Origin: Pseudogemmobacter lacusdianii
GTDB taxonomy: Bacteria; Pseudomonadota; Alphaproteobacteria; Rhodobacterales; Rhodobacteraceae
Length of the DNA stretch: 64,000 nucleotides
Direction: 5' to 3'
Assembly (NCBI RefSeq): GCF_030848395.1
Contig: NZ_JAVDBT010000017.1
Location: 1 to 64,000, forward strand
Of this stretch, positions 13,797 through 24,124 are shown piece by piece. Every line of letters starts with the position of its first letter. Position 1 is the stretch's first letter. The translations under genes were made by a program, and so were the position numbers. The notes under the pieces were generated by a model. It was not told the DNA's origin. It searched no databases and was given only the letters and a program-made list of their open reading frames with translations.

Positions 13797-15563
13797 ATGA
13801 CACAGCAGAGTGAAAACACCGGGGATCGCGCAGGCGGTACCCGGGCCTTGGCCGTGGCGCTAAGCGTTCTGGCGGCTGCTGCGGCGGGCATGGTGTTCTA
13901 CATCTACGGAGCGACAGACGGGGTCGACCCGCTCGACATCGTGCGCAGCTTATTGATTTTCCTCTCGACTTGGTGGCTGGCATGGGGGGCGGCGACCGCT
14001 TTGCTGGGTTTGACCTCGCGGGCAAAACCACGCCCGAGCCTGACGGCACCGATCCGAGGCCGTACGGTTGTGATCGTGCCGGTTTACAATGAAGACCCTC
14101 AGGTCACCTTCGCGCGCGTCGCTGCGATGGACGATTCCTTGCGCGCCGCAGATCCCAGCGTGCCGGTCGATATCGCCATCCTCTCAGACACCCGAGATGA
14201 GGCGATTGCGGGTGCCGAGCGGATATGGTTCTCGCGCCTTTTGGCCCGCCAGCATGGGCAGGGGCGGATCTTCTACCGCCGCCGCGAAAAGAACACCGGC
14301 CGCAAAGCCGGCAATATCGAAGAATTCGTCGTCCAATCCGGCGCGGCTTGGGATTACGCGGTGATCCTTGACGCTGACAGTCTGATGGAAGGCGCGTTGA
14401 TCCACGAGATGATCCGCCGGATCGAGGCCGAGCCGCGTTTGGGGCTTTTGCAAACCCTGCCCAAGGTGGTGCGGGCCCGCTCGATCTTTGGCCGTGCGAT
14501 GCAATTCGCCGCTGGCTTCCACTCGCCGATCTTTGCCCGCGGATTGGCCGCGATGCAGGGCCGGACCGGTCCCTTCTGGGGCCATAATGCCATTGTGCGG
14601 ATGCGGGCTTGGGCGGAATGCTGTGGCTTGCCGGAACTGCCCGGCAAGGCTCCCTTTGGCGGCCATATCATGAGCCATGACTATGTCGAGGCGGCCTTGC
14701 TTGCGCGCGGCGGTTGGACGGTGCGGCTCGATGATGACTTGCAGGGCAGTTACGAAGAGGGCCCCGAGAATATTGTCGATCACGCCAAGCGCGACCGCCG
14801 TTGGTGCCAAGGCAATTTGCAGCACTCCAAGGTTCTTATGGCACCGGGGCTGAAACCGTGGAGCCGTTTTGTCTTTATCCAAGGCATCTTCGCCTATATC
14901 GCGCCGCTGATCTGGCTTGCCTTCATCGCGGCTTCAATCGCGGCGGTGTATTGGGTTGGGCAACCGAACTATTTCCCGCTGGAAAACTGGCCTTTCCCGG
15001 TTTTCCCCAATGATGAGACCGCCAAGGCGGTGGGCTTGGCTGTGGGCGTCTTCGGTCTTCTGGTGATGCCCAAGTTCTTGGTTTTGCTGGAAGCCATCTT
15101 TTCGGGCCGCGCGCGCAGCTTTGGCGGAGCGGCACGGGCTGCGGGATCTGTGGGGTTGGAGCTGCTTTTGTCCTCACTGATCGCGCCGGTGCTTTTGGCG
15201 TTCCAAAGCCGTTCGGTCTTCCAAGTGATCTTGGGCAGCGATGGCGGCTGGCCGCCGAACAATCGCGGCGATGGCCGACTTGATCTGGCCGATGCTTGGG
15301 CGGCGGCCCGCTGGATTAGCCTGTGCGGCGCGATTGGCATGGCGGCGACCTATGTGCTGGCGCCGGTGCTGCTTCTTTGGTTGATGCCGGTGACCTTGCC
15401 GATGCTGATCGCGCCGGTGCTGATCGCTTGGACCTCGCGACCGGGCCGGGAGCAGGGGTTCTTGGTGCCTGAGGATGCGGATTACCCCGCAATCCTTGAG
15501 CGCCATGACGAGATCTTGCGCGAATGGGGCCGGGCTTTTGAGAGCGAGACTAAGGTTGCCTGA
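13797..15563 (+). CDS. opgH: OpgH, membrane glucan glucosyltransferase
   Basis: 588 residues, a family 2 glycosyltransferase anchored by several membrane helices (two N-terminal near residues 15-40 and 45-68, and more after residue 355). The catalytic region has IVPVYNEDP, ILDADSLMEG and the processive-synthase signature RRWCQGN. It polymerises UDP-glucose into periplasmic glucan backbone while moving it across the inner membrane. It is shorter than enterobacterial OpgH, which has longer N- and C-terminal regions. It is coupled to both neighbours, and the opgC start lies inside its 3' end. Confidence 0.92.
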   Translation: MTQQSENTGDRAGGTRALAVALSVLAAAAAGMVFYIYGATDGVDPLDIVRSLLIFLSTWWLAWGAATALLGLTSRAKPRPSLTAPIRGRTVVIVPVYNEDPQVTFARVAAMDDSLRAADPSVPVDIAILSDTRDEAIAGAERIWFSRLLARQHGQGRIFYRRREKNTGRKAGNIEEFVVQSGAAWDYAVILDADSLMEGALIHEMIRRIEAEPRLGLLQTLPKVVRARSIFGRAMQFAAGFHSPIFARGLAAMQGRTGPFWGHNAIVRMRAWAECCGLPELPGKAPFGGHIMSHDYVEAALLARGGWTVRLDDDLQGSYEEGPENIVDHAKRDRRWCQGNLQHSKVLMAPGLKPWSRFVFIQGIFAYIAPLIWLAFIAASIAAVYWVGQPNYFPLENWPFPVFPNDETAKAVGLAVGVFGLLVMPKFLVLLEAIFSGRARSFGGAARAAGSVGLELLLSSLIAPVLLAFQSRSVFQVILGSDGGWPPNNRGDGRLDLADAWAAARWISLCGAIGMAATYVLAPVLLLWLMPVTLPMLIAPVLIAWTSRPGREQGFLVPEDADYPAILERHDEILREWGRAFESETKVA

Positions 15564-16692
15564 GCTGAAGAAACCGCGCGACCACCGGATTGATTTCCTG
15601 CGGGGGCTGGCTTTGGTGATGATCTTCATCAACCATATTCCGGGCACGTTCTGGGAAAACTTTACCTCGCGCAATTTCGGATTCTCCGATGCGGCCGAGG
15701 GTTTTGTGCTGATGTCAGGGATCGCCACCGGACTGGCCTTTGGTCCGGCCTATATGGCAGCGGCCCCAATGGTGGCGCGGTTGCGGCCTTGGCGTCGATC
15801 CTTGGTGCTTTGGGCGGTGCATGTGCCTTGCTGTCTGTTGATCTTGGCGCTTTTCGCCGCCCTTATCGGCGATCCTGCCGTGGCGAAAATGGCGGCGGCG
15901 CGCAACATCGCGCCGGTCCTGCAAGATCCTTGGAGCTATGTGCCTTCGGTCACCGTCTTGATGCACCAATTCGCCTATGCCGACATTTTGCCGCTTTATA
16001 TTCTGTTGTTGCTGGCCGCGCCGGGCGTGCTCCTGCTGGCGGTGCGCTGGCCGCGCGCGCTGATGCTGGGGTCACTGATCATGTGGTTTGCGGCCGGGTT
16101 CTGGTTCATTCGTCTGCCAACCTATCCGCAGCCAAACGCTTGGTTTTTCAACCCGTTCAGCTGGCAGGTGCTGTTTGTGGCAGGGGTCTTAACCGGGCTT
16201 GCCACGCGGCAAGGTCGCCGCTTCCTGCCCTATCATAAATGGGCTGTTGTACTGGCTTGGGGCTTTTTGATCATGGCGGCAATCTGGGTACAGGTTCCTG
16301 CCGTCGCCAAAGCCGGAGGCCACGCACTATGGCAGCTTAAACAATGGTTTGGCCTGCCTTCGGTGCTGGTGGCCTTTGACAAAGGCATGCTGCATCTGCC
16401 GCGCCTGCTGCATATCTTGGCTTTGGCCTATGCGCTGAGCTACCTGCCAGTGCTGAAGCCGATTGCCTCGAGCGGGTTTGGCGCGGTGCTGGCGCGGCTT
16501 GGCCGCCATTCTCTGCCGGTCTTTGCCACGGGCACGGTGCTGGCCTATGTGGGGCAATTGACGAAGGCGATGGCCGGGCCTTCGCTCCTTCTCGACACGC
16601 TTTTGATTGGGTTGGGCCTTTGCGTGCTCTTCGCCGTCGCCCGCCTGCGCGAGGGGCAAAAGCAAAGCGCTGCGATCGCGCGCACCGCCTAA
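15556..16692 (+). CDS. opgC: OpgC, glucan succinyltransferase
   Basis: About 378 residues with ten or so membrane segments; the N-terminal signature RDHRIDFLRGLALVMIFINHIPG is that of the OpgC_C acyltransferase family. It transfers succinyl groups from succinyl-CoA to periplasmic glucans. The likely start is the TTG at 15556, overlapping the opgH stop by eight bases and placing the conserved region at residue 7; an ATG at 15508, deeper in opgH, is the alternative. It is the last gene of the operon, 74 bases before the ATP-grasp gene on the same strand. Confidence 0.88.
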   Translation: MPELKKPRDHRIDFLRGLALVMIFINHIPGTFWENFTSRNFGFSDAAEGFVLMSGIATGLAFGPAYMAAAPMVARLRPWRRSLVLWAVHVPCCLLILALFAALIGDPAVAKMAAARNIAPVLQDPWSYVPSVTVLMHQFAYADILPLYILLLLAAPGVLLLAVRWPRALMLGSLIMWFAAGFWFIRLPTYPQPNAWFFNPFSWQVLFVAGVLTGLATRQGRRFLPYHKWAVVLAWGFLIMAAIWVQVPAVAKAGGHALWQLKQWFGLPSVLVAFDKGMLHLPRLLHILALAYALSYLPVLKPIASSGFGAVLARLGRHSLPVFATGTVLAYVGQLTKAMAGPSLLLDTLLIGLGLCVLFAVARLREGQKQSAAIARTA

Positions 16693-16766: not shown

Positions 16767-17915
16767 ATGGCGCGGATTTTGGTGACGGGCGCAAGGGCCC
16801 CAGTGGCCCTGCATCTGGCCCGACTGCTGAGCAGCGCGGGTCATACCGTGCTGATGGCCGACAGTCAGCTTTGCCCAATGGCCAAGGCAAGCCGTATGCA
16901 TCACGGCTTCCACCTGTTGCCTCCACCGCGTTTTGAACCTGAAGCCTTTGAGGCCGCATTGCGCCAGCTGATCGAGCGAGAAGCGATCACCTTGGTTCTG
17001 CCAAGCTGCGAGGAGGTCTTCTACCTTGCGCAAATCTGGGCCAAATCGCCTCACAATGCGCAGCTTTACGCGCCCCCGATGGCACTCTTGGCCGAAGCCC
17101 ATGACAAGCACGCCTTCATCGGCCTTTGCGAGCGGCTTGGACTAGGGGTTCCGCCGACCCAGCTTTTGACCTCTGTGAAAGATCTGCAGGCGTTGGGGCC
17201 GGATTTGCAGAGGTTTGTTCTTAAGCCGGTCTGGTCGCGCTTTGCCTCGCAAGTCTTGATCCGTCCCAAGGGGACAGAGCTGACGGGGGTTTTGCCAAGC
17301 AAGGCCGCACCTTGGGTGGCGCAGAGCCATTTAGAGGGCACGGAGATCTGCGCCTATGCCTTGGCCGATCATGGCCGTCTGCGGGCATTGTCGCTTTACC
17401 GAGGGCTTTACCGCGCGGGCAAAGGGGCTTCGGTGGCTTTTGCGCCGCTCGAAGACCCAACTGCGCGGCGCTTTGTTGAGCGTTTCGTGGCGGGCACAGG
17501 TTGGACTGGCCAAATTTCTTTTGACCTGATGCGTCTGGCCGATGGGCGGGTGTTGCCTTTGGAATGCAACCCCCGCGCCACCAGCGGGCTGCATTTCTTC
17601 AAAGATGGGCCGGGGTTCGCACGGGCGCTCTTCGGCCAAGGCGATGTGGCCCCTGATGTTACCGCCCCGCAAGGGGTGCGGCTCGCACTTTGGGCTTACG
17701 GCCTGCCGCAGGCCTTGCGCCGGGGCGCGCTGCCGGCTTACCGCACCGCCTTGCGTGAGGTGCAAGAGGTGCTCGATTGGCCCGGTGATCCGGGGCCGAA
17801 GCGCGCCCAATTTGCCACGCTGCGCGCGATCGCCGCAAAGGCCTTGCGTGAGCGGATCAGCCTTCAACAAGCCTCGACCCGTGACATCGAATGGAACGGG
17901 CCTCAGGGCGCTTAA
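16767..17915 (+). CDS. ATP-grasp protein, orphan ligase
   Basis: 382 residues starting at MARILVTGARAP behind a GGGGGG ribosome site. An N-terminal Rossmann-like preATP-grasp domain (about 1-110) precedes an ATP-grasp fold, with the lysine in FVLKPVWSRF and the metal-binding end LECNPRATSG near residue 265. Such enzymes activate a carboxylate as acyl phosphate and join it to an amine, thiol or hydroxyl. It faces the six-gene minus-strand cluster, and its TAA shares bases with the Rieske gene stop (TTAA). It may be part of that pathway, or a tail gene of the opg operon. The substrate is unknown. Confidence 0.8.
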   Translation: MARILVTGARAPVALHLARLLSSAGHTVLMADSQLCPMAKASRMHHGFHLLPPPRFEPEAFEAALRQLIEREAITLVLPSCEEVFYLAQIWAKSPHNAQLYAPPMALLAEAHDKHAFIGLCERLGLGVPPTQLLTSVKDLQALGPDLQRFVLKPVWSRFASQVLIRPKGTELTGVLPSKAAPWVAQSHLEGTEICAYALADHGRLRALSLYRGLYRAGKGASVAFAPLEDPTARRFVERFVAGTGWTGQISFDLMRLADGRVLPLECNPRATSGLHFFKDGPGFARALFGQGDVAPDVTAPQGVRLALWAYGLPQALRRGALPAYRTALREVQEVLDWPGDPGPKRAQFATLRAIAAKALRERISLQQASTRDIEWNGPQGA

Positions 17916-18907
17916 AGCTCGATCTGCAGCTTTCGGGGATGTGAGGCAGCCTGCGGTGCCTGTCCCGCCGCCAGCGCCTCGATATCGGCGCGCAGGATGT
18001 CCAAGGGGCCGATCAGCGGGCGCGGCTGGCCTGCCTCATTCCAGCGCTCCAAGGCCTGCGCCAATACCTTGCGGTCTTGCTGCAAAGCGATGCGGAAAAG
18101 CGGTCGGAAGGCCTGCATCTTCAGCCAGCCCCAAGCCCCCTGACGCGGCCCAACCAAAAGGCCGATGCCTTCCACGTGATCCGGCTTGGCTTGGCGCAGA
18201 TGGAAGGTCGTGGCCAGAACCAGTCCCTTCGGCCCCCAATATTCCAACTCGGCAATCCCGGGATGGCGGTAGCGCCCAATGGTCCGCACCCGCGACCCAT
18301 CCAGCAGCGCCGAGATCAGGCCCTGCTGGCGATCTTCGCCGGTATAGCTGGCCTCAACCCAATTCGGCCCGCCAGTTACCTCAACATTCACCGCATAGCG
18401 TTTGGACGACAGCCCGCGCAGCAGGCCTTTGTGGGTGTAATGGGTATGGGTCGCGTCCAGGATATTTTCGGCGGCATCGATCAGGGTTGAGCGGGTCTCG
18501 CTGTGCACCAGAAGACTGCGAACATCCTGCCCCTCGGCGGCGTGGAGATAGGGGGCATGCGTCGGATCGCCGGTGGAGATGAAGATCACGCCGCCGCGCT
18601 CGGCTGTGCGGAGGCTCGGGATCCGGTAGCGCGGAAGTTGGGTCATCAGCCCCGGAATAGCGGTGCATTGCCCGCCGCCGTTGAAACGCCAGCCGTGATA
18701 GGGGCACTCGATCTGGCCCTGATGCACGCGCCCGCCCGAGAGCGGCACATGGCGATGCGGGCAGCGGTCGTGCAACGCGCTGAGCCCCTCGGCCCCGCGA
18801 AAAAGCACATAAGGCTGACCTTCCCACCAGATCTGCCGGGGCTTTGCGCCAATGTCGCGGCTTAGCGCGACGGCTTGCCAATCTTGATGCGGAGAGGCTG
18901 AGGTCAC
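17912..18907 (-). CDS. Rieske non-haem iron oxygenase
   Basis: 331 residues from a GTG that overlaps the upstream stop (GTGA). The N-terminal Rieske domain has C49, H51, C68 and H71 (CPHRH ... CPYHGW), which bind the 2Fe-2S cluster. The C-terminal part carries the mononuclear iron motif DATHTHYTH. This is the alpha-subunit architecture of ring-hydroxylating or demethylating oxygenases; no reductase or ferredoxin gene is near, so electrons must come from elsewhere. It is the last gene of the six-gene cluster and probably oxidises its product. Confidence 0.88.
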   Translation of the reverse strand: MTSASPHQDWQAVALSRDIGAKPRQIWWEGQPYVLFRGAEGLSALHDRCPHRHVPLSGGRVHQGQIECPYHGWRFNGGGQCTAIPGLMTQLPRYRIPSLRTAERGGVIFISTGDPTHAPYLHAAEGQDVRSLLVHSETRSTLIDAAENILDATHTHYTHKGLLRGLSSKRYAVNVEVTGGPNWVEASYTGEDRQQGLISALLDGSRVRTIGRYRHPGIAELEYWGPKGLVLATTFHLRQAKPDHVEGIGLLVGPRQGAWGWLKMQAFRPLFRIALQQDRKVLAQALERWNEAGQPRPLIGPLDILRADIEALAAGQAPQAASHPRKLQIEL

Positions 18908-20007
18908 AGACGGAACCTTTGCAAAAGTGGCACGCCGATGCGGGTCAAAAGCTGGCGCATCAGGGCCGTCGCCCAGCGTTGGCGGCGGGGCAGGTGGCGG
19001 GTGTAGACGGCTGTATATTCGATGACGGGAATGCCGCCGCGATGGCGCTTGAAGGCGGCGGCCCCGGCGGAGCAATTGAAAAACATGCCTCTTTCGGCCG
19101 CATGATCGCGTGCGACTTGCATAATCAGCCGGTACAGCCCCTCACGCATTGGGCGTGAGGTGTCATAGCCGACGATGGGTTGCGTCAGGGTGCGTCCGCT
19201 TGCAAAGAGCCCGGTGACGGCGATCAATCTGCCCGTTTCATCGCGGAAGCCTGCGAGTTCCAAAAGCCCCGCGCGGTGCATCTCTTGGATGTAAAGCGCG
19301 GTGTAGTCGGGATTAAGCGGGGTATATTTGCGCAAATATAGATCGGCGTAAAGCTGGGCGCAGACCGGGTAATCTTCCTCGGTGAAGTCCTCATTGCCAA
19401 CGCGCGGGAAGGGGCAGCGCTGAAGATGTAGGCGGTCGCGGCGCATGTTTGGGCTATGCGGGCGATCGGGGGAAATGTCCGAAAAGATATAGACCTGTCG
19501 GGCCGGGAGCAGGTCAAACCCAGCAGTTTGCAGGGCTGCAATGGTTTCTGCATCTGCCAGTTTGTTCAAAGATCGCAGCAGGATGGCGTGAGTTTTGAAA
19601 GTGGAGGACAGTTGGTCCCGCAGATCTACGGCTTGCGCCACCGAAAGCGCCGGAACTGGATTTGTAGAAAAAAGCCAATTGTTGATCTGCACCTGTCGAT
19701 CAAGACCACTGGCTTTTACAAAGGGCCGGGCGGCCCGAATAAGGCCCATGCAGGCGGCCCGCAGGAAAGGGTTGCGCGCGAAGTGCCGGGTCTCTTCCAA
19801 GGCGTAATCGATGTAGCCGCTGGTGGGGTTGCAAATGTAGCAGGTCTCCGCCCCATCGTTCAGGCTGAGCGGAAAACTCAGCCCGCCGCTTTGGACGACT
19901 TGCAGCCTCGTCTCTAGGTTGGCGACGAGCGCCGGAGTGCCGTGCCGCTGAAAGAGCGCCACGAAGGCTGCGACATCTTCGGGACGGTTGTGGGCCTGCG
20001 CCGTCAT
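18904..20007 (-). CDS. Acyltransferase-like protein of unknown function
   Basis: 367 residues, starting with an ATG in the upstream stop (ATGA). No signal peptide or membrane helix. The C-terminal half (REGLYRLIMQVARDHAAERG, then FNCSAGAAAFKRHRG) resembles the acyl-CoA N-acyltransferase fold seen in GNAT/FemAB-like proteins, but this rests on pattern only. The N-terminal half is not recognisable and holds a pair of cysteines in TCYICNP. Its place between the adenylate-forming enzyme and the Rieske oxygenase suggests that it transfers an activated acyl group. Confidence 0.6.
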   Translation of the reverse strand: MTAQAHNRPEDVAAFVALFQRHGTPALVANLETRLQVVQSGGLSFPLSLNDGAETCYICNPTSGYIDYALEETRHFARNPFLRAACMGLIRAARPFVKASGLDRQVQINNWLFSTNPVPALSVAQAVDLRDQLSSTFKTHAILLRSLNKLADAETIAALQTAGFDLLPARQVYIFSDISPDRPHSPNMRRDRLHLQRCPFPRVGNEDFTEEDYPVCAQLYADLYLRKYTPLNPDYTALYIQEMHRAGLLELAGFRDETGRLIAVTGLFASGRTLTQPIVGYDTSRPMREGLYRLIMQVARDHAAERGMFFNCSAGAAAFKRHRGGIPVIEYTAVYTRHLPRRQRWATALMRQLLTRIGVPLLQRFRL

Positions 20008-21254
20008 GGCAGAGCCTGCGGCAAGGCGCATTCGACCCGGCGCAGTTTTCGCGTTGCGTCCAAGGGCAGTGGGCGGCGGGTCAGAGTGAGCTGCACGCCG
20101 GGGCTGCGCTGGTTTAGAAGGGCTTGAACCGCTGTGGCTGCCGCTTGGGCGCTGGCCTCCGGCAGCTCTGGCGGCAGCAGCAGTTCCACTTGCGTTCCTG
20201 ACCGCTGAACCAGTCGAAAATCATCGATGTCGCGGGCGCTTAACACGGCGTTGCGCAACACATCAGGGGTGAGAAGCACCCCGCCAGCCAGCCTGAAACA
20301 ATCGTCCATCCGGCCGACAATCTCATGAACGTGACGCAAAGGTGAGCCGCAGGAGCAGGGCGTATCGGCGAGCCGTAGAAGATCATTCATCCGGTAGCGC
20401 GCCATGATCTGCGTCTCGCGGCGGAAGGCGGTGACGAGCGGAGTGACAAGCCCGTCCCCCGCCGGTTCAAACTCAAAAAAGGTTGCATCCTCGGCCAGAT
20501 GCAGCCCGCCATGACGGCAAGTGGTGGCGAATAGTCCCTCGGTTGCCATGTAGATCTGATCGAGGGGGCGGTTGAAATATCCCTCGATCATCGGCCGGTC
20601 GGGCGGATCCAAGGTCTCGGCTGCGGCAAAAATCCGTTGCGGCTGAAGGCGATAGCGGCTTTCAGCGAAATGGCGCAGAAGCCGCGGCGGCGCCAGAAGG
20701 ACGGTCGGCGCGAAGCTCTCCAATTCAGCGCGCCAGTTGACCGGGCCGATGGTTATGTCGAAGACGCGCAACTGCAGCCAAGGCAGGCGGCGCGCGGCGT
20801 GATACAGCCTTGTGTCGCGGGGCAGCACGATCGCGACGCGGGAAGGCCGGGTTAGCAAGCCGTCCATGCATTTGGCTAAGATACTGCCCAACCAGCGAAA
20901 GCGCTCAGCCTCGGAGATCACGAAAAGCCCGCGATTGCCCGAGGTGCCGGTGGAGCAACCGATGGTCAAACGGCCGATCTTGCCGCCTTCCAGCCCCGCC
21001 CAAGCCTGCTCGGCGGTGAGGCCGGGGCGGTTGTAGCGGTGAAATTGCGCCATCAGCTGGGCTTTATCGGTGATCGGCAGATCGCTGAGCCTTGCCGGCG
21101 CCGCTGCATAGGCCCGCACTTGCGGCAAATCGTTGTGGAGCCAGCGGGCGAGGGCGCGGGTCTGGGCGGCTTCAAAATCGGCACGCGAAAGACCGGGGCG
21201 CGAGAGGCGTTTGGTGCGAAAATAGGAGCTTAACACCTCAATGGCGGCGATCAC
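20004..21254 (-). CDS. Adenylate-forming enzyme, F390 synthetase/PaaK-like
   Basis: 416 residues from a GTG overlapping the upstream stop. The P-loop-like segment GCSTGTSGNRGLF and the downstream YMATEGLFATTC and RYRMNDLLRL mark the acyl-adenylating superfamily, in the branch of coenzyme F390 synthetase-related proteins and phenylacetate-CoA ligases. The zinc-ligand-like CSCGSPLRHVHEIVGRMDD seen in PaaK relatives is present. It probably activates a carboxylate as adenylate within the six-gene cluster; the substrate and acceptor are unknown. Confidence 0.82.
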   Translation of the reverse strand: MIAAIEVLSSYFRTKRLSRPGLSRADFEAAQTRALARWLHNDLPQVRAYAAAPARLSDLPITDKAQLMAQFHRYNRPGLTAEQAWAGLEGGKIGRLTIGCSTGTSGNRGLFVISEAERFRWLGSILAKCMDGLLTRPSRVAIVLPRDTRLYHAARRLPWLQLRVFDITIGPVNWRAELESFAPTVLLAPPRLLRHFAESRYRLQPQRIFAAAETLDPPDRPMIEGYFNRPLDQIYMATEGLFATTCRHGGLHLAEDATFFEFEPAGDGLVTPLVTAFRRETQIMARYRMNDLLRLADTPCSCGSPLRHVHEIVGRMDDCFRLAGGVLLTPDVLRNAVLSARDIDDFRLVQRSGTQVELLLPPELPEASAQAAATAVQALLNQRSPGVQLTLTRRPLPLDATRKLRRVECALPQALP

Positions 21255-22051
21255 GGCAACACCTCATCAAAGGCGGTGAGAGCGGGATCGTGGCAGAGCA
21301 TTAGCCGCGCGCCGGTATCGCGCAAAGCTGTCAGCCGCGCTGAGGAAGGGGCCAAAGCGGCGGGGCTCTCCGCGATCCAGCGCAACGGCGGACCGGGGAT
21401 TTTGGAGGGCTCGAGCGCTGCGATCAGCCATTGCGCATCGGTCCCATAGGCGAGCGGGCCACCCGTAGCTTGCGGAAAATAAAGGCCGAAATGCTCTTCA
21501 GCATGGCCGGGCAGGTCGATGGTGAAAAGGCTGCCATCGCCAAGGAGGTCACGGCCCGATGGGCCTTCCGCTTGGTGCTCGATAGGGTCAAGCCGGGCGG
21601 CAAAATCATCGGGCAAGAGGTCTGGGAATATCCCGTGGCGCAGATTGCCTGCCGTGCTGCGCTGGCGGATGCGGGCATAGGCGCGGGCGCTGGCGGTGAA
21701 GCGGGCGTTTGGGAATTGCCGCAGGCCCGAGATATGGTCTGCATGGAAATGCGTGACGATGACGCGGGTGATGTCCTGCGGGCGCAGGCCTTGGCGGGCG
21801 AGGAAGGCCTGCGGTTGGCCCGTGGCGATCAGCCTTGGCCGTAGAAGTTGCCCGTAGATCCGCAAGCCAAAGGAACGGCCGGGGGCGGTGATGCTTTCGG
21901 CGGTATAGCCGGTGTCGATCAGGATCGGGCCTGATGCATGGCGGATCAGACCGTAGCGCACTTGCAGGTTCACCGCGCGCCAAGCGCCGCCGCGTTTCAG
22001 CAGCGCTTCGGGCGCGCGGACGAAGGCGCTGTTGCTAAAAATCGGTGTCAT
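21251..22051 (-). CDS. MBL-fold metallohydrolase
   Basis: 266 residues with the metallo-beta-lactamase signature THFHADHISG (H101, H103, D105, H106), DLPGHAEEHFGL for the third histidine, and GTDAQW for the bridging aspartate. Lactonase-like in overall layout (N-terminal VRYGLIRHASGPILIDTGY). It could hydrolyse a thioester, lactone or ester intermediate of the cluster pathway. It starts within the SDR stop (ATGA) and ends within the start of the adenylating enzyme (GTGA). Confidence 0.85.
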   Translation of the reverse strand: MTPIFSNSAFVRAPEALLKRGGAWRAVNLQVRYGLIRHASGPILIDTGYTAESITAPGRSFGLRIYGQLLRPRLIATGQPQAFLARQGLRPQDITRVIVTHFHADHISGLRQFPNARFTASARAYARIRQRSTAGNLRHGIFPDLLPDDFAARLDPIEHQAEGPSGRDLLGDGSLFTIDLPGHAEEHFGLYFPQATGGPLAYGTDAQWLIAALEPSKIPGPPLRWIAESPAALAPSSARLTALRDTGARLMLCHDPALTAFDEVLP

Positions 22052-23007
22052 GGTCGGGCCTTGAAGGTGCGATCAAGCCCTTCATCAAAGCTGATGCGAG
22101 GCCGCCAACCCAAGATTTTCTCGGCTTTGCCGATGTTTAGGCTTTGCGCATAGGCGAAGAGTGCCAGACCGTAGCGGGTCACCATTGGCTCGCGACCATG
22201 GGTGAGAAGGGCCATGCGTTCGGCGATGGATGCGGCGAAAAGCACCGGGGGGAGCGGCATTTTGCGCCAGCGCAGCGCCACATTCACACGGGCGCAGGCG
22301 CGGCTGGCGATCTCGGTCACTGGTAGCGAGGTGCCGCCCGAGATGTGGAAGATCTGGCCTGAGGCTTCGGGGCCAGCATCAAGGGCCGCGATACAGGCGG
22401 TGGCCACGTCGTCCACATGGGTGAGGTCAATCCGTGCATGACCGCCTCGGAAAAGCGGCAGGGGGCGGCTGCGGGCGGCCTGCAAAAGGCGCGGCAGAAG
22501 GGCGGTGTCGCCCGCCCCGTAAAGCCCGCGGGGACGCAGTATCACTGGCGAGAGGTCCGGGGCGGCTAGGACCAGAGCCTCCGCTTCGGCTTTGGTGCGG
22601 GCGTAGGACGTGTAGGGCGCGGGCAGGGGCGTGGTCTCATCGAGATCCAACTGGTCGCATGGCGCGAAAAGCACCGAAGGCGAGGAGATATGCACGAGCC
22701 GCCGCACCCCAAGCCGGCGGGCTAAGGCGATGACCAAAGCCGTGGCCGCCACATTGGCGCGGCGGAAGTCGTGCAAATGGCCAAAAGGCGCAGAGAGCGC
22801 TGCACAATGCAGGATCGTTTCAACCCCTTGCAGGGATTGAGTATCTGGCAGCGGCTCGGCCAGATCCCAAGCAAGACCGGGCTCGGGCAGGGCTTCCAGC
22901 CGGGCGGGGTCTCGGCTTTGGGCAATGACGTCTCGGTCATGTAATGCGCGCCGCAAAGTGGTACCCAAGAACCCTGTGGCGCCGGTGATCAGGATGCGGC
23001 CAGACAT
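22048..23007 (-). CDS. NAD(P)-dependent epimerase/ketoreductase (extended SDR)
   Basis: 319 residues. The nucleotide-binding motif GATGFLG (G9, G12, G15) and the catalytic YxxxK (Y135, K139) are both present, in the extended SDR family with 3-beta-HSD and OleD-type reductases. After a KAS III-like enzyme, the natural reaction would be reduction of the new 3-keto group. The ATG overlaps the stop of the synthase gene by one base (TAATG). Confidence 0.87.
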   Translation of the reverse strand: MSGRILITGATGFLGTTLRRALHDRDVIAQSRDPARLEALPEPGLAWDLAEPLPDTQSLQGVETILHCAALSAPFGHLHDFRRANVAATALVIALARRLGVRRLVHISSPSVLFAPCDQLDLDETTPLPAPYTSYARTKAEAEALVLAAPDLSPVILRPRGLYGAGDTALLPRLLQAARSRPLPLFRGGHARIDLTHVDDVATACIAALDAGPEASGQIFHISGGTSLPVTEIASRACARVNVALRWRKMPLPPVLFAASIAERMALLTHGREPMVTRYGLALFAYAQSLNIGKAEKILGWRPRISFDEGLDRTFKARP

Positions 23008-23987
23008 TAAACCTCCAGCGCCATGCCGCCGAAGGAGACCCCGGCTGAGGTGCCAAGGAATAAGACCCGCATGCCGGGCCGGATGCGGCCCTGCCGCCGC
23101 GCCAGATCCAGCGTGAAGGGGATCGAGGCCGCGATCTGGTTGCCATAATCGGCGGCGATATTCACCACACGCTCCGCCGCAAAGCCGGTTTGGCGGATCA
23201 TATGGGCCAAGGCGGCGGGGCTGGCTTGATGCGGGATCACCAGATCGACATCGCTATGCTGCCAGCCGGCGCGGTCCAGAAGGTCAGTGACAAAGCCACC
23301 GAAATATTGCGCGGCAAGGCGGAAGAGGGTGCGGCCTTCCATCGCGAAAAATGCATGTTCTGCAAAGGCCTCTGGCTCTTGGGTGAAGTCGAACCTTGTC
23401 CCCCCTGCGCCGATGCCGCAGGCCTCATAGGCGGAAGGGTAGCTGCGCATCAGGCAAGCGGCGATGCGGGCTGGGCCTTTAGCGGGACGCAAGATGGCAG
23501 CAGCAGCGCCATCGCCGAAAAGCCCCGCAATCTCGGGAGCTTGCGCCCAAGGCAGGGCGCGCGAGGCAAGCTCGGAGGAAAAGACCAAAGCTGTGCCGCC
23601 TTGGGAAATCATCCGCGCGGCGGTCTCAAATCCGGTCAGAAAGGAAAGGCAGGTGCTGTTCACATCGAAAGCTGCCGCTTGGCCATCGGCGATGCCAAGG
23701 CGGGCCATCACCAAAGGCGCTGTCGCGGGGATGGGCTGGTAGGGCACAGCAGAGGCGCCGATGATCAGACTGATCTCTTCGGCGCGGATCCCGGCATCGT
23801 CTAGCGCGGCTTGCGCGGCTGCCACCGCCAGATCAATCTGGCTCTCGTCTTGACAGATCGCCCGCTCGGCCACTCCGGTCAGGCTGAAAATCCGCCCCTC
23901 GGGCAGGCCGTGGTGCGCATCGAGCGTGGCTGAGCTGACCATAGCAGCGGGAAGCGCGCGGCCTGTGCCTGCAATCTCAACTCGCAT
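23007..23987 (-). CDS. 3-oxoacyl-ACP synthase III-like (KAS III) enzyme
   Basis: 326 residues with a complete KAS III triad: C113 in NSTCLSF, H253 in IPHQA and N283 in YGNQIAASIP. It should condense an acyl starter with a second acyl unit. Since it is encoded in a cluster and not with fatty acid genes, it is probably a pathway-specific synthase and not the housekeeping FabH. The ATG at 23987 gives a normal N-terminus (MRVEIAGTG); a TTG two codons earlier is less likely. It is the first gene of the overlapping six-gene operon. Confidence 0.87.
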   Translation of the reverse strand: MRVEIAGTGRALPAAMVSSATLDAHHGLPEGRIFSLTGVAERAICQDESQIDLAVAAAQAALDDAGIRAEEISLIIGASAVPYQPIPATAPLVMARLGIADGQAAAFDVNSTCLSFLTGFETAARMISQGGTALVFSSELASRALPWAQAPEIAGLFGDGAAAAILRPAKGPARIAACLMRSYPSAYEACGIGAGGTRFDFTQEPEAFAEHAFFAMEGRTLFRLAAQYFGGFVTDLLDRAGWQHSDVDLVIPHQASPAALAHMIRQTGFAAERVVNIAADYGNQIAASIPFTLDLARRQGRIRPGMRVLFLGTSAGVSFGGMALEV

Positions 23988-24093: not shown

Positions 24094-24124
24094 GAAAACA
24101 CCCCCGGAGTTGCCTCCGGGGGTG
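24094..24124 (-). terminator. Intrinsic terminator of the APC permease gene
   Basis: On the minus strand CACCCCCGGA (24124-24115) pairs with TCCGGGGGTG (24108-24099) over a six-base loop, then TTTTC. It lies 26 bases after the permease stop and separates it from the KAS III cluster. Confidence 0.9.

Follow-up and report, generated by a model that had tools for sequence, protein, structure and literature searches.

A conserved four-gene core with exchangeable tail genes in Pseudogemmobacter lacusdianii, a predicted acyl or lipid biosynthetic locus

Several described systems share parts with a seven-gene locus that we analyzed in Pseudogemmobacter lacusdianii (Rhodobacteraceae), within a 64,000-nucleotide stretch of contig NZ_JAVDBT010000017.1 (positions 1 to 64,000, forward strand; assembly GCF_030848395.1), which we call the window. 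Like this locus, the OleABCD system combines a condensing enzyme, an OleD-like short-chain dehydrogenase/reductase (SDR), an adenylating enzyme, and a hydrolase; unlike OleABCD, the window has an adenylate-forming enzyme (ADE) of the PaaK/F390 type, a metallo-β-lactamase-fold (MBL) hydrolase in place of OleB, and tail ligases and transferases. Escherichia coli loci recognized by TIGR02304 (F390 synthetase-related) possess the same four core genes in the same order, although their proteins are 29 to 35% identical to those of the window and their tail encodes PAP2, fatty acid hydroxylase, and desaturase proteins. MprF/aminoacyl-phosphatidylglycerol (PG) synthase, FemX, and Sbb17/Sba18 have an overall fold in common with the GNAT protein of the window, whereas this protein differs from MprF, FemX, and Sbb17 in its low identity to them (9 to 15%), in the lack of a FemAB or LPG-synthase match, and in its location in an operon with a KAS III-type condensing enzyme (KAS) and an SDR. 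Besides, the domain of the homoserine-lipid synthase BtaA (DUF3419), which is not among the seven genes of the window, fills the equivalent slot in other genomes.

We propose, with a probability of about 0.5, that the locus is a two-part operon in which four core enzymes build a lipid-like, hydroxy-acyl scaffold that an exchangeable tail then decorates. The gene calls, the core and tail architecture, the co-inheritance, the checked residues, and the predicted folds of two tail proteins that we report here are direct results of computation. A preliminary description of the locus, made from the sequence, knew of no named pathway with this gene set, and searches of the open-access PMC literature for the set or its parts likewise showed no characterized counterpart of the set, and no characterization of the E. 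coli-type TIGR02304 family, among the papers listed (titles, abstracts, and passages; 20 of 46,196 matching papers in one search, which therefore carries little weight). An earlier computational survey of amidoligases (2009) may already have touched on such operons. In the passages available, an F390-synthetase gene is merely listed (PMC5467263 and PMC9823363) or is reported from a phenol expression study as a coenzyme F390 synthetase gene (PMC5501837). A ladderane link through the name F390 synthetase was considered and rejected, as the available passages of PMC2649909 name an acyl-CoA ligase-like gene in a D. psychrophila FASII cluster and give no link to the gene set. We regard the locus as a probable acyl/lipid biosynthetic cluster, the core of which is apparently unnamed.

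Gene content and linkage of the core

The genes of the locus and the hairpin upstream of it are as follows.

23007..23987, minus strand: KAS III-type condensing enzyme, 326 amino acids (aa), first gene of the operon (PF08541/PF08545)
22048..23007, minus strand: extended SDR, 3-beta-HSD-like ketoreductase, OleD-like, 319 aa (PF01370, PF01073)
21251..22051, minus strand: MBL hydrolase, 266 aa, nearest to acyl-homoserine lactone (AHL) lactonases (PF00753)
20004..21254, minus strand: ADE of the PaaK/F390-synthetase type, 416 aa, GTG start, last of the four core genes (TIGR02304)
18904..20007, minus strand: tail gene 1, encoding a GNAT-fold protein of 367 aa that is predicted to be an aminoacyl-tRNA-dependent aminoacyltransferase (PF13480; AlphaFold2 fold)
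17912..18907, minus strand: tail gene 2, Rieske-type nonheme oxygenase, 331 aa, GTG start (PF00355)
16767..17915, plus strand: tail gene 3, ATP-grasp ligase, 382 aa, convergent (PRK06849 model; AlphaFold2 fold)
24095..24124, minus strand: terminator-like hairpin with a GC-rich stem, a GCAA loop, and a short T run, separating the KAS gene from the permease gene upstream of it

The six minus-strand genes form a run in which the reading frames overlap at all five junctions (TAATG, ATGA, GTGA, ATGA, and GTGA), and both the open reading frames and the sequence agree with the coordinates and junctions of the coupled unit described previously. The ATP-grasp gene is convergent with the Rieske gene, their 3' ends sharing 4 nucleotides (nt).

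We compared the locus with 80 named loci, selected by similarity as the best 80 among 582 confirmed matches and rich in Mesorhizobium, with loci at contig ends kept in the denominators. All four core genes were present in 74 of the 80, and a contig end truncates every one of the six loci without the full core (L057, L078, L095, L114, L120, and L126). Leaving Rieske aside, the remaining six families occurred together in 54/80 loci, and all seven did so in 44/80, the latter spanning 21 genus-level labels, including those of metagenome-assembled genomes (MAGs). These 44 loci fell into four arrangements: KAS-SDR-MBL-ADE-GNAT-Rieske with ATP-grasp opposed (27 loci), ADE opposed to the other six genes (9 loci), KAS-SDR-MBL-ADE-ATP-grasp with Rieske-GNAT opposed (7 loci), and ADE first with all genes co-directional (1 locus); besides, the SDR gene lies on the opposite strand in L043 and L127. 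That the gene set is kept through rearrangement argues for a shared function.

A less biased sample consisted of 398 Pseudomonadota genomes drawn evenly, which we searched for TIGR02304 matches scoring ≥150 bits. Ten genomes passed, including that of the window, and in all nine others KAS, SDR, MBL, and ADE followed one another in that order (in one of them with SDR matched as two frames). The core is therefore uncommon, being present in about 2% of the species sampled, yet it was linked in every strong case examined. It is also found in Bacillota and in a Gastranaerophilales MAG, and in a reordered form (SDR-MBL-ADE-KAS) in Fusobacterium, and such linkage across species rules out chance adjacency. 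Indeed, the expectation that the genes would stay together in related genomes was borne out by both samples. The seven genes had been described as one biosynthetic unit; they are co-inherited, as this implies, but the seven-gene set proved to be one variant of a wider core and tail system.

Plasmids also carry the system. A plasmid search returned 57 matching records, and in 20 of these the match spanned ≥80% of the query. The same seven genes were found in annotated Shinella and Rhizobium records and in a record labeled Roseateles; ATP-grasp and GNAT accompanied the core in records from Paenibacillus and Paraburkholderia; and in Ketogulonicigenium, Paracoccus, and E. coli records the core stood without the GNAT, Rieske, and ATP-grasp families. 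Two Pseudomonas plasmids had no full core. On one Pseudomonas megaplasmid (L038:6857-10445) ADE stands beside an ATP-grasp relative, and on another (L135) ADE occurs with relatives of KAS, SDR, MBL, and ATP-grasp scattered over about 17 kb. The clusters of a MAG labeled Flavobacteriaceae (L080) and of the plasmid labeled Roseateles, whose organism is unverified (L033), are most like alphaproteobacterial ones; mislabeling, a binning error, and recent transfer are candidate explanations.

Core enzymes and the chemistry they suggest

Residue conservation was counted over alignments of each family from the 80-locus set, and the residues, including the Rieske and mononuclear iron residues of the tail oxygenase, are assigned the catalytic roles usual for their families. 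In KAS, both KAS III Pfam domains were found and each residue of the C113-H253-N283 triad was present in 75/75 relatives; the nearest NCBIfam model is NF005541 (272.5 bits; cut-off, 402), and the nearest PDB sequences are of FabH type and CorB. In the SDR, Y135 and K139 were present in 76/77 sequences (one being gapped there) and S108 in 74/77. Thus, the active-site residues named in the preliminary description for KAS (C113-H253-N283) and SDR (Y135/K139) are present in the window proteins and conserved in their relatives. The metal-site residues of the MBL hydrolase are largely present, with H101, H103, D105, H106, H183, and D205 in 77/77 and H254, at a position within a region of alignment shifts, in 63/77.

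ADE scored 218.2 bits against TIGR02304, under the curated cut-off of 251.9, compared with 755.5 bits for the E. coli member, and so, judged by sequence, stands near the F390-synthetase-related PaaK-type family as a divergent relative. Its residues S101-G103-T104-S105-G106, E239, D291, and K403 were each found in 78 or 79 of 79 sequences; its matches to PDB sequences were weak and to PaaK-like ligases; and in its own genome the sole match at an E value of ≤0.001 was ADE itself. Among the genomes of 194 relatives, 33 had ADE matches at this threshold, of which those under about 120 bits resembled PaaK-type paralogues and were not used. The previous assignment as an adenylating enzyme holds for the adenylate-forming type and is refined to a divergent PaaK/F390-related protein that matches no Pfam family at an E value of ≤0.1. 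KAS, ADE, and ATP-grasp each score under the cut-off of their nearest NCBIfam model, and the window proteins are therefore divergent members.

An OleABCD-like route to β-lactones or olefins, with MBL replacing OleB and the PaaK-type enzyme replacing OleC, would suit the gene order, since condensing enzyme, SDR, hydrolase, and ADE resemble A-D-B-C and OleD is the closest NCBIfam model to the SDR. However, the SDR reached only 172.7 bits against that model (cut-off, 580), ADE had no AMP-binding Pfam match, so that no OleC-type AMP-binding domain was detected, and no OleB α/β hydrolase is encoded among the seven genes. We know of no role for the tail genes in Ole chemistry. The resemblance to OleACD suggested previously thus fails on the OleB, OleC-type, and OleD-score features tested, and we consider an Ole-type pathway improbable.

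The MBL hydrolase, being nearest to AHL lactonases, might instead point to a catabolic or signal-quenching operon in which MBL opens lactones, ADE makes CoA esters, and the remaining enzymes degrade the products. It missed the equivalog score of AHL lactonases (63 bits against the AttM model; cut-off, 390). Such an operon is highly improbable in view of the complete condensing triad of KAS in all 75 relatives, the lack of a β-oxidation gene or transporter among the seven, and the predominance of ligases and transferases among the tail genes.

The PaaK-like ligases nearest to ADE among PDB sequences are also consistent with activation of an aromatic or short acid, leading to an aryl-polyketide or signal in the manner of the alkylquinolone (Pqs) pathway, which comprises enzymes comparable to these, with MBL as a PqsE-like thioesterase. 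A PQS biosynthetic enzyme and PqsC were indeed among the PDB matches of KAS, but at 68 and 60 bits, compared with 148 and 145 bits for FabH and CorB. Since the tails seen elsewhere are for the most part directed at lipids or hydroxyls and the seven genes include none for aryl-acid synthesis, we regard a Pqs-like pathway as rather unlikely.

Tail genes and the slot after the core

GNAT and ATP-grasp occurred together in 57 of the 61 loci having either (of the 80), GNAT alone in two and ATP-grasp alone in two. Among the 194 relatives, a full-length GNAT (>490 bits) was found in three genomes (G000, G061, and G093), and a full-length ATP-grasp in the same three; a weaker GNAT match (135 bits) in G019 lies on a different contig from its ADE match, and another 26 relatives had ATP-grasp matches of ≤56 bits. 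In an approximate, midpoint-rooted ADE tree that shows no support values, GNAT/ATP-grasp tails occur in the alphaproteobacterial and Bacillota/Gastranaerophilales clades, and loci without a tail or with different tails are scattered among them.

Among the best 80 of 582 matches, the ADE closest to that of the window belongs to the locus of Rhodobacter sp. SGA-6-6 (L053). The two flanks of this locus are syntenic with those in the window (FAA hydrolase, nitrilase-type, permease, opgC, and opgH genes, 71 to 89% identity), and GNAT, Rieske, and ATP-grasp are exactly the genes that it lacks. In the genome that we take to be that of this strain (G002), we found no GNAT match, an ATP-grasp match of only 20 bits, and Rieske matches of ≤46 bits. 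All four core genes of L053 keep open reading frames, and their dN/dS values are about 0.17 (KAS), 0.23 (SDR), 0.36 (MBL), and 0.18 (ADE), compared with 0.10 to 0.16 in three flanking genes, all of these values being rough because dS is near 1.

In 10 of the 14 core-only loci, the frame of an end-group gene overlaps or directly follows the ADE stop codon. The slot encodes a DUF3419/BtaA-domain protein in L083, L084, and L109; a glycosyltransferase in L106 and L113, by Pfam scan, and in L110, L115, and L122, by sequence clustering and the overlapping frame; and a sulfotransferase in L086, by Pfam scan (as also in L036), and in L087, by clustering and the frame. BtaA, we assume, belongs to the DUF3419 family, and enzymes of the DUF3419/BtaA, glycosyltransferase, and sulfotransferase types typically act on lipid or small-molecule hydroxyls. 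According to the available part of PMC10685587, an algal gene annotated as DUF3419 was identified as the betaine-lipid synthase BTA1. Elsewhere, a sulfotransferase gene and a TetR regulator gene lie upstream of the core (Paracoccus and Ketogulonicigenium), and in the E. coli tail the hydroxylase is nearest to the NCBIfam model OlsE, far below its cut-off. This variety of tail enzymes suggests a hydroxyl-bearing, probably lipid-like scaffold accepting different end groups. In L099, a Rieske-family protein without the Rieske cluster comes first after the core and DUF3419 second; this relative (L099:11242-12096) retains the part with the catalytic domain, having a VanA_C match and no Rieske match.

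The E. coli locus (L035:4191-11072 and L138:3001-9882) is chromosomal, between narI and tRNA-Tyr genes; 672 of 5,426 complete E. coli genomes, the asymptomatic strain ABU 83972 among them, match this 6.9-kb locus, 671 of them over at least 80% of its length.

The GNAT protein of the window had been called acyltransferase-like. PF13480 was its sole sequence family match, found in 15/38 members, which supports the GNAT domain; the part of that description concerning acyl transfer fared less well in structural comparison. The AlphaFold2 model, built from 38 sequences, had a pLDDT of 95, and 19 of its first 20 Foldseek matches were FemX, Sbb17/Sba18 (streptothricin), or domains of MprF/aminoacyl-PG synthase (a putative assignment for the 5vrv chains); the remaining one was a protein of unknown function. 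Known members of the Sbb17/MprF/FemX type use aminoacyl-tRNA, and K320, which lies within an FK motif and was invariant in 59/59 sequences, presumably resembles the catalytic lysine of FemX. The modeled protein is thus structurally closest, by fold only, to aminoacyl-tRNA-dependent transferases. In the passages available, PMC2922099 states that such GNAT ligases use aminoacyl-tRNAs for lipid aminoacylation and antibiotic synthesis, and supports a general role of MprF/Fem-type GNATs in pathways for lipids and metabolites and of ATP-grasp ligases in operons for peptide metabolites.

The alternative that we take most seriously, though still as unlikely, is that the GNAT is an acyl-CoA- or acyl carrier protein-dependent N-acyltransferase and that the product is an N-acyl amino acid or an ornithine-lipid-like aminolipid. 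The core would then supply a 3-hydroxyacyl thioester, GNAT would acylate an amine, ATP-grasp would ligate an amino acid, and the Rieske enzyme would hydroxylate the product. KAS and SDR suit 3-hydroxyacyl formation, PF13480 is a GNAT domain, an OlsE-like hydroxylase occurs in the E. coli tail, and ornithine-lipid-like logic is common in Rhodobacteraceae. However, the top fold matches are aminoacyl-tRNA transferases, with N-acyltransferases ranking lower, and we know of no adenylating enzyme or MBL hydrolase in OlsBA-type pathways.

The other two tail proteins retain the residues checked. In the Rieske protein, which scored 23.2 bits against VanA_C, just below the cut-off of 23.5, the ligands C49, H51, C68, and H71 were present in 48 or 49 of 49 sequences and D151, H154, and H159 in 49/49. 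ATP-grasp scored 311.4 bits against the PRK06849 model (cut-off, 406); its AlphaFold2 model had a pLDDT of 94.8, and K153, E266, N268, and R270 were conserved in 59/59.

Concerning the surroundings of the locus, the hairpin upstream of KAS has a predicted RNA fold of -27.1 kcal/mol (z score of -4.9 compared with shuffled sequences), and with its T run it suggests that the operon probably starts anew between the permease gene and KAS. A promoter and terminator consensus scan gave nothing above shuffled sequences and did not report this hairpin. On the other side, opgH-like glycosyltransferase and opgC genes (13797-16692, plus strand) directly precede the ATP-grasp gene, are also neighbors in L053, and look unrelated to the pathway.

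Proposed pathway and its implications

In the two-part operon that we propose, KAS would elongate an acyl group, SDR would reduce the 3-keto group to a hydroxyl, MBL would hydrolyze a thioester or lactone, and ADE would activate a carboxylate. GNAT, having a FemX/MprF fold, would probably transfer an amino acid from aminoacyl-tRNA onto the scaffold, ATP-grasp would probably form a further amide bond, and the Rieske enzyme would oxygenate the product. The product is most likely, by this prediction, an acyl lipid or a small molecule derived from a lipid that is oxygenated and bears an amino acid, and a lipid- or acyl-derived product, guessed at from the outset, stays the best guess. We infer the order of the reactions, the substrates, the hydroxyl acceptor, the use of aminoacyl-tRNA, and the lipid nature of the product from the enzyme families, the predicted folds, and the neighbors in other genomes.

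Several observations weigh against this pathway. With respect to the division into core and tail, ATP-grasp lies between KAS and SDR, and not in the tail, in several Bacillota, where it may thus be part of the core chemistry. The slot holds no end-group gene in 4 of the 14 core-only loci (L053, L092, L093, and L096). In L101, DUF3419 occupies the slot and a GNAT gene comes next, so the tails are not strictly exclusive. Besides, in five generic-type loci of the same genus (L045 and L047 to L050), the core is followed at 4 to 37 nt by a co-directional frame of 231 to 324 aa, which is a glutaminase where scanned (L049) and has no obvious role in the pathway.

With respect to the tail chemistry, the first 20 fold matches of GNAT are moderate (TMq, 0.40 to 0.54; identity, 9 to 15%), tandem GNATs and N-acyltransferases also match the fold at a lower score, none of the 38 members matched the FemAB or LPG-synthase Pfam families (E value of ≤0.1), and the alignment profile gave only chance-level matches to PDB sequences; it is the modeled fold that makes the use of aminoacyl-tRNA probable. 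The fold of ATP-grasp is generic, being near 2pn1 and the amide ligases PylC and RizA and also near PurK and biotin carboxylase. As described previously, we detected no carrier protein, transporter, or regulator among the seven proteins by Pfam and NCBIfam; of these, the lack of a carrier protein and of a transporter counts against the pathway, as does that of an aminoacyl-tRNA synthetase among the seven genes. Furthermore, the preference for a lipid over an aryl or short-chain product comes from neighbors in other genomes and not from this genome.

Tentatively, the system might represent an undescribed class of bacterial polar lipids, or a secreted acyl metabolite, in which a backbone made by a dedicated KAS-SDR-MBL-adenylase core has its headgroup changed by gene swap in one translationally coupled slot. 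If so, the headgroups would be an amino acid from tRNA, a homoserine ether, a sugar, or a sulfate. The core is present in several phyla and in about 1 in 8 complete E. coli genomes. To our knowledge, antiSMASH-type cluster-finding rules would probably miss this gene set, which could explain why we found no name for the pathway. If the proposed pathway is true, one conserved four-gene core would provide an acyl scaffold across phyla, with natural tail swaps hinting at the end group, and the genomes of the window and of Rhodobacter sp. SGA-6-6, with shared surroundings and different tails, would be a ready pair for comparison.

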